33,017 bases of DNA. Source: a bacterium (GTDB taxonomy: Bacteria > SM23-81 > DAOVCL01). Below the pieces are notes generated by a model. That model saw only the letters and a list, made by a program, of their open reading frames with translations. It searched no databases and had not been told where the DNA came from. Below, piece by piece: positions 32,597 through 33,017 of this stretch. Position numbers and translations under genes: made by a program. Location: assembly GCA_029932675.1 (NCBI GenBank), contig JAOZPP010000033.1, forward strand, positions 1-33,017, written 5' to 3'. Positions within the stretch are counted from its first letter, which is position 1. Each line of letters begins with the position of its first letter.

Positions 32597-32625
32597 TTGA
32601 CATCTATCAGCGATTGGATTATCTT
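32597..32625 (+). promoter_or_regulatory. Sigma-70 promoter for tRNA-Ala
   Basis: A perfect TTGACA (32597-32602), a 17-nt spacer and TATCTT (32620-32625). Transcription would begin about 10 nt before the mature tRNA-Ala. Confidence 0.65.
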
Positions 32626-32641: not shown

Positions 32642-32718
32642 GGGGCTGTAGCTCAGCTGGGATGAGCGCTTGTCTGGCAGACAAGAGGTCACGGGTTCGA
32701 TCCCCGTCAGCTCCACCA
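32642..32718 (+). tRNA. tRNA-Ala(GGC)
   Basis: Complete cloverleaf: acceptor GGGGCTG/CAGCTCC with the alanine identity pair G3:U70, D arm GCTC/GAGC, anticodon stem CTTGT/ACAAG with loop CTGGCAG (anticodon GGC), and T arm ACGGG/CCCGT. The discriminator is A32715 and CCA is encoded (32716-32718), unlike the tRNA-Arg at the other end of the window. An eight-T run follows at once and may help termination. Confidence 0.95.
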
Positions 32719-32733
32719 ATTTTTTTTGCCCTT

Positions 32734-32762
32734 TTGACTTGACCCGATTTGAGGTGTATACA
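32734..32762 (+). promoter_or_regulatory. Orphan sigma-70-like promoter downstream of tRNA-Ala
   Basis: TTGACT (32734-32739), a 17-nt spacer and TATACA (32757-32762). Transcription would begin near 32769 and run into the foldable, non-coding-looking tail. No clear gene follows within the window. Confidence 0.45.
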
Positions 32763-32892
32763 AAGAGATAAGAGGTGACCAGGTTGAAAGATCTTTGGCT
32801 ATTCAGCCAGAGGGAAGATATCCGCACCAGGTGCTGATATGAACAAGCTATACGCCATCCCTCCACATTACCTGGCAAAGGATTGAGGGAAG

Positions 32893-33006
32893 ATGGATGT
32901 AGCTAAATCCAAGAATGGTGTGCCAATCAGATTGAGAGGAGGCGAAAGATATGGGAACAGTAGAACTAAACTACTACCGCCTAAAGGCGGTAGGTTTATG
33001 GGGTAG
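32893..33006 (+). pseudogene. Possible N-terminal fragment of a small gene disrupted by a hairpin element
   Basis: ATG 32893 follows GAGGGAAG and opens a 37-residue frame. Its first 14 residues, MDVAKSKNGVPIRL, recall the start of a group of short uncharacterised proteins, possibly nuclease-like, that I remember as continuing with Thr-x-Glu-Arg-Trp. Here the likeness ends abruptly and the frame runs through the bulged hairpin to a TAG. It may be a gene start cut by insertion or decay. This is recall of a pattern, not a search result. Confidence 0.25.
32967..32998. repeat. Long bulged hairpin, IS200/IS605-end-like
   Basis: An 8-bp perfect stem (CTACCGCC 32974-32981, GGCGGTAG 32986-32993) with loop TAAA is extended by TAAAC (32967-32971) pairing with GTTTA (32994-32998), leaving TA (32972-32973) as a bulge. 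Imperfect hairpins with a small bulge mark the ends of IS200/IS605 elements, where the Y1 transposase binds. It is not followed by a T-run, so it is a poor terminator. No transposase gene is in the window. Confidence 0.45.
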
Positions 33007-33017
33007 CCATAGAAAAT

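Follow-up and report, generated by a model that had tools for sequence, protein, structure and literature searches.

What is the folded stretch that follows the tRNA-Ala gene at the end of this contig, where a promoter-like pair leads into a series of hairpins? A sequence-only reading had proposed a non-coding RNA or the RNA of a mobile element. The window, meaning the whole 33,017-nt stretch of DNA analysed here, is the entire contig C107, one of the 116 contigs that make up a 3.03-Mb genome (G000). Our analysis indicates that positions 32795 to 32856 are very probably a decayed integron attI site, of the kind located directly 3' of tyrosine-recombinase integrases akin to archaeal XerA and followed by cassettes in the same direction. 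The features of the region are the following:

32642 to 32718, plus strand: tRNA-Ala (GGC), the left neighbour (ARAGORN, Rfam)
32734 to 32762, plus strand: promoter-like pair TTGACT-17 nt-TATACA (read directly; missing from the promoter scan)
32795 to 32810, plus strand: left hairpin TTGGCT-ATTC-AGCCAG of the presumed attI region, of the CTGGC..GCCAG type (similarity to G375:C49, G489:C2 and G525:C42)
32818 to 32840, plus strand: putative attI palindrome ATATCCGCAC-CAG-GTGCTGATAT, with one C/T mismatch (match 32808-32860 of covariance model R1; covariation)
32847 to 32856, plus strand: putative core GCTATACGCC, the cassette joining point (alignment of 24 sites)
32893 to 33006, plus strand: open frame of 37 codons that begins MDVAKSKNGVPIRL and runs into the insertion sequence (translation; gene pairs of contigs C84 and C96; N-terminal part by resemblance only)
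32951 to 32963, plus strand: beginning of a DUF2283-type gene that the insertion sequence interrupts (similarity to the C96 DUF2283 gene)
32964 to 33017, minus strand: probable end of an IS200-type element, inside which the contig stops (repeat at 8 other contig ends; Y1 transposase of G023; hairpin 32974-32993)

The promoter-like pair is present in the sequence as it had been described, but our promoter scan, whose rule requires T at the last -10 position, did not list it and gave only one promoter, at 32597, upstream of the tRNA; the pair may be a cassette promoter. Both hairpins reported earlier (32795-32810 and 32818-32840) were found in place, as were the strings CCAGGT (32779-32784) and ACCTGG (32870-32875). 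The outer helix that these two strings had been thought to form was set aside, its arms lying on either side of the cassette junction. The relatives inspected showed no trace of this pairing. Folding was modestly better than that of shuffled sequence, with a z of -2.48 for DNA at 32779-32876 (1/200 shuffles as good) and of -2.11 for RNA at 32734-32998 (6/200). In favour of a structured non-coding RNA, or of a leader starting from the 32734 pair, one could cite these modest z-scores, the promoter-like pair and the stem covariation described below. However, a scan of the window at Rfam gathering scores returned two tRNAs and no other RNA family, the pair went unlisted, and the conserved element is found again immediately 3' of integrase genes, with a recombination core at its end. 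We abandoned the RNA interpretation as very unlikely.

Covariance model R1 was built from 11 aligned sites, all 3' of integrase genes or their remnants, with the window left out. The 10-bp stem, chosen on this same 11-site alignment in a way that favours the covariation score, scored 0.505 against 0.162 in shuffled alignments (0/500 as high) and 0.04-0.09 when slid. A 24-site alignment, in which two rows came from training and all others had been selected by R1, covaried too (0.377 against 0.133; 0/500 as high). Comparison with related sequences, proposed earlier as a check, did reveal covariation in the stem and marks a conserved palindrome; a DNA-binding dimer and a hairpin explain this covariation equally well. 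The palindrome at 32818-32840 is a probable integrase-binding repeat, and the string GAACAAGCTATACGCC occupies 32841-32856 directly after it.

Up to an E of 10, R1 had a single match in the window (32808-32860; 25.4 bits), with an E of 3.9e-4 that amounts to only 0.036 genome-wide. Elsewhere in the same genome it matched the training site on C22, the opposite strand of the C22 palindrome, and a new site on C93 (E 0.001). The integrase remnant 5' of the C22 site is interrupted by a stop codon. On C93, the last codons of an integrase come first, then the site and a gene for an AadA-like nucleotidyltransferase, with GTTAGGC strings further on. The AadA-like nucleotidyltransferase (L111 / L136, G000:C93) was weak against named resistance models.

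In 290 further genomes (own included), R1 matched 23 places at E<=0.01; these were spread over 16 genomes and included two training sites. Integrase sequence was located upstream on the same strand in 9 of the 21 non-training matches, while tblastn detected none in the examined DNA around the other 12; the match in G286 looks like chance. When named genomes were queried with the G004 enzyme, the best 80 of 587 confirmed stretches were taken. Thirteen of these 80 had an R1 match at E<=0.02, including nine training sites, and 67 had none; the non-training four (L054, L062, L044, L059) shared the strand of the integrase and lay no more than ~340 nt from where its match ended. The palindrome and core of the window also matched G004:C82 (76% of 59 nt), where the matching DNA is directly 3' of a tyrosine-recombinase gene. 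Furthermore, a number of the best 80 of 587 loci, mostly from Bacteroidota, presented a hairpin and then GTT shortly after the integrase. A scan for this hairpin-plus-GTT arrangement in 76 integrase 3' flanks found 11 matches against 2.2 in base shuffles, the places picked in L047 and L051 being doubtful.

A second group consisted of 245 genomes from the phylum of G264, 19 of which had an integrase match at E<=1e-40. Several of their sites carried a CTGGC..GCCAG hairpin before two palindromes. With E values that hold for the compared loci only, window positions 32796-32839 matched G375:C49 (86% identity over 44 nt, E 1.4e-8), 32796-32835 matched G489:C2 (85% over 40 nt, E 2.1e-6) and 32796-32812 matched G525:C42 (17/17 nt identical, E 0.046). 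In G375:C49 and G489:C2, the matching DNA lies 32-43 nt after the integrase matches. By R1 and by these two loci, the window site is homologous to attI-type sites that adjoin integrases. In G375, the integrase end is followed by the hairpin, then by palindromes 1 and 2, and then by the core. The window palindrome repeats palindrome 1, down to the C/T mismatch, and leads straight into the core, which suggests that a deletion removed the second palindrome. L114, L118, L179, L186 and L168 likewise have two tandem palindromes ahead of the core, where the window has one. Of note, one site, L190 (G375:C75), has GGCAGATAAC four times in its downstream DNA, the pattern that a cassette array would give.

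On the general integron model, the palindrome(s) of intact relatives would serve as binding sites for the integrase, and a circular gene cassette would enter by recombination between its folded attC and the G|TT core. The window has departed from that arrangement. No integrase sequence was found within 1.5 kb upstream of its site; C22 and C93 have remnants only, and intact adjoining genes occur in other relatives. One palindrome remains. In the 24-site alignment, the window alone has GCT in its core and the other 23 sites have GTT, so that GCTATAC stands where a G|TT core of the RYYYAAC/GTTRRRY type would be. Since no integrase was found and the core is altered, this copy is probably inactive. 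The lack of an integrase upstream would also suit an orphan attC or a secondary integration site, where a cassette was captured away from attI, and arrays without an intact integrase do exist in this genome on C83 and C96. The palindrome and left hairpin nevertheless match the attI side found 3' of integrases and are unlike the attC sites seen here, which makes a capture of this sort improbable.

The attI reading carries a prediction about the cassette. In integrons, the bases that follow the attI G derive from the attC of the cassette, so their reverse complement is expected at the far end of that cassette. The sites examined for it were hand-picked, 28 at first (9 with an exact partner) and 26 after two plain cassette starts of the own genome were dropped. 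An exact partner of the 10-base core was present 100-6000 nt downstream in 8 of these 26 sites, compared with 4/648 for foreign cores, that is, cores swapped between loci. Within one mismatch, 14/26 sites had a partner (60/648 for foreign cores) and 12/26 had none. Single-base shuffles gave 0.14 of 26, and direct downstream copies of the core were seen in 2/26. Four further sites, outside this set, gave one exact partner and three with one mismatch, among which L187 is unconvincing. The partner of the window core itself is expected beyond the contig end at 33017.

The clearest cases of an exact attC partner combined with an intact enzyme lacking the IntI-specific (I2) region and an attI-type site were L033 and L036 (Bacteroidota) and L037 (Spirochaetota), L037 being a complete set of integrase, site, one gene and canonical attC. 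At L052, the partner is present and our script did not find the inner attC stem; in G264, all on one contig, the partner has one mismatch. In most of the 18 loci put through an attC scanner, the counts were close to the values for shuffled DNA (L148, 0 vs 4.0; L151, 2 vs 2.4), and the scanner's matches were used only where they were also read by eye.

Downstream of the core, the earlier statement that no good coding frame explains the segment was partly right: an open frame of 37 codons does run through 32893-33006, but its parts look like remnants of a gene pair. We infer that this frame could be the start of the first cassette gene fused by deletion to the end of the same gene. Positions 32937-32970 matched the start region of the C96 DUF2283 gene (88%, E 3.4e-5), and the first cassette was probably a pair of PBECR2-like and DUF2283 genes that has lost most of its first gene. 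The N-terminal remnant of the cassette peptide had no homologue in plasmids, and a search of 98 genomes returned itself and one weak match. Such pairs exist elsewhere in the same genome. On C83, a cassette opens with GTTATACGCC and closes with GGCGTATAAC in an attC, after which come a PBECR2-like gene whose frame shifts midway and a DUF2283 gene. The pair on C84 (L143) is uninterrupted, with the PBECR2-like gene overlapping the DUF2283 gene, and its first protein matched PBECR2 with an E of 1.3e-4, under the curated cut-off. It is possibly a toxin-antitoxin-like pair. DUF2283 had eight matches in this genome, some in cassette arrays.

The last hairpin had been described as IS-like, and it is indeed present at 32974-32993. 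From 32964 onward, the final 50-54 bases of the contig are found again, free of mismatches, at eight further contig ends in this genome. In G023, a 34-nt match (91%) extends over the 3' end of a gene for a Y1 (IS200-type) transposase, which is encoded on the opposite strand. These repeats and the Y1 overlap mark the hairpin as the probable end of an IS200-type element within which the contig was broken. The suggestion of a mobile element with a conserved folded structure was right. The likeness to the IS200 family consists of the subterminal hairpin and of the Y1 transposase beside a similar end in G023; the difference is that the visible part of the contig has the end only, without a transposase. 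This end was not found in viral contigs. The cassette would thus carry an internal deletion, with its second gene interrupted by the IS200-type element.

The position of the site, 77 nt after the tRNA, brings to mind the attachment site of an element integrated at tRNA-Ala or a dif-like Xer site, as does the presence of the tRNA-Ala without the site in G001, which is of the same genus. Against this, a search with 32719-33017 found no second copy of the tRNA-flanking part, and the relatives of the motif adjoin integrases in the same layout. We therefore regard an attachment or dif-like site as extremely unlikely. Under the attI reading, the G001 arrangement implies that the integron was either gained in the genome studied here or lost in G001. 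At the other end of the window, positions 1-52 are repeated at the start of contig C96, a second contig-breaking repeat, and 123-314, just before a tRNA-Arg (410-485), encode the C-terminal part of a further tyrosine integrase (PF00589, 69.9 bits), likely the remnant of an integrated element.

The integrases adjoining the related sites are distinct. For the intact L037 and L033 enzymes, the best family was XerA-type NF040815; neither of these two, the ones scanned, reached the TIGR02249 cut-off of 265 bits (200.7 and 215.5, respectively, in two pieces). A profile of ten such enzymes has about 43 residues fewer than IntI4 in the I2 region, and the I2 domain expected of an IntI is absent from the integrases of the relatives. 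Among 88 loci examined, two fixed motifs were spaced 56-67 residues apart in 63 of the 65 frames that had them, the rest being without the motifs. The spacing was 100 residues at L099 and L105, which by length alone would pass for ordinary IntI. The full-length L037 model (pLDDT 80.8, pTM 0.54) had PDB 4a8e as its best match (Z 23.4, rmsd 9.6, 255 aligned).

For the N-terminal domain, Pfam HARP was above cut-off in one of eight N-terminal pieces, that of L037, and below it in L148 and L149. Foldseek placed the HARP domain of SMARCAL1 first (E 0.0095), with no match at E<=0.001; a profile search gave HARP an E of 0.86, and a second structural aligner did not have HARP among the best 50 matches listed (best Z 5.6). 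We therefore call the domain HARP-like tentatively. By eye, the integrases of L039, L043, L049, L056 and L058 are followed at once by a transposase-like gene, which we take to be IS91-type. Judging from their position, the I2-less enzymes would themselves move the cassettes, the alternative being a classical IntI acting in trans on them.

The I2 region is held to be required for recombining single-stranded attC. Natural I2-less integrases beside attI-type sites and attC would make this question testable. According to the available text of a 2008 survey (PMC2426708), matches were retained if they had either the IntI additional domain or the IntI patch, criteria by which an I2-less group could have been left out. 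The open-access literature, as far as its available text goes, yielded no I2-less integron integrase. We give even odds to the site being one of a widespread class of integrons with I2-less integrases, which may use the N-terminal HARP-like domain instead. If so, a search built on the IntI-specific domain could overlook such systems, and they could account for some attC clusters 'lacking an integrase'. From partial text, attI sites outside class 1 are described as poorly characterised (PMC9024848), and a model such as R1 is able to find some of them. On the attI reading, the apparent RNA gene becomes a fossil integron, which places cassette capture in a little-sampled lineage (3/59 other genomes drawn belong to its phylum).

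Several known systems can be compared with this one. The attI1 site of class 1 integrons has a core plus upstream repeated integrase-binding elements, as here; these are direct repeats, and the neighbouring intI is divergent, with its 5' end next to the site, unlike the arrangement described above. In the available part of a report on Treponema-type chromosomal integrons, intI is transcribed toward attI, in the direction of the cassettes, and the core stands between intI and the first cassette (PMC3607928). Direction and core position are the same here; the Treponema-type enzymes are called integron integrases, and that part of the report makes no mention of an attI palindrome. For archaeal integrons, the accessible text describes an attI directly downstream of intI, as here, semi-conserved across phyla, and many attC clusters without intI; archaeal IntIs are reported with the IntI-specific domain (PMC9668308), whereas the enzymes studied here are without it. 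Both by sequence and by model, the solved structures nearest to the L037 integrase are those of the XerA-type recombinases 4a8e and 5hxy, from which the enzymes described here differ by their extra N-terminal, tentatively HARP-like domain and by the attI and cassettes adjacent to them.
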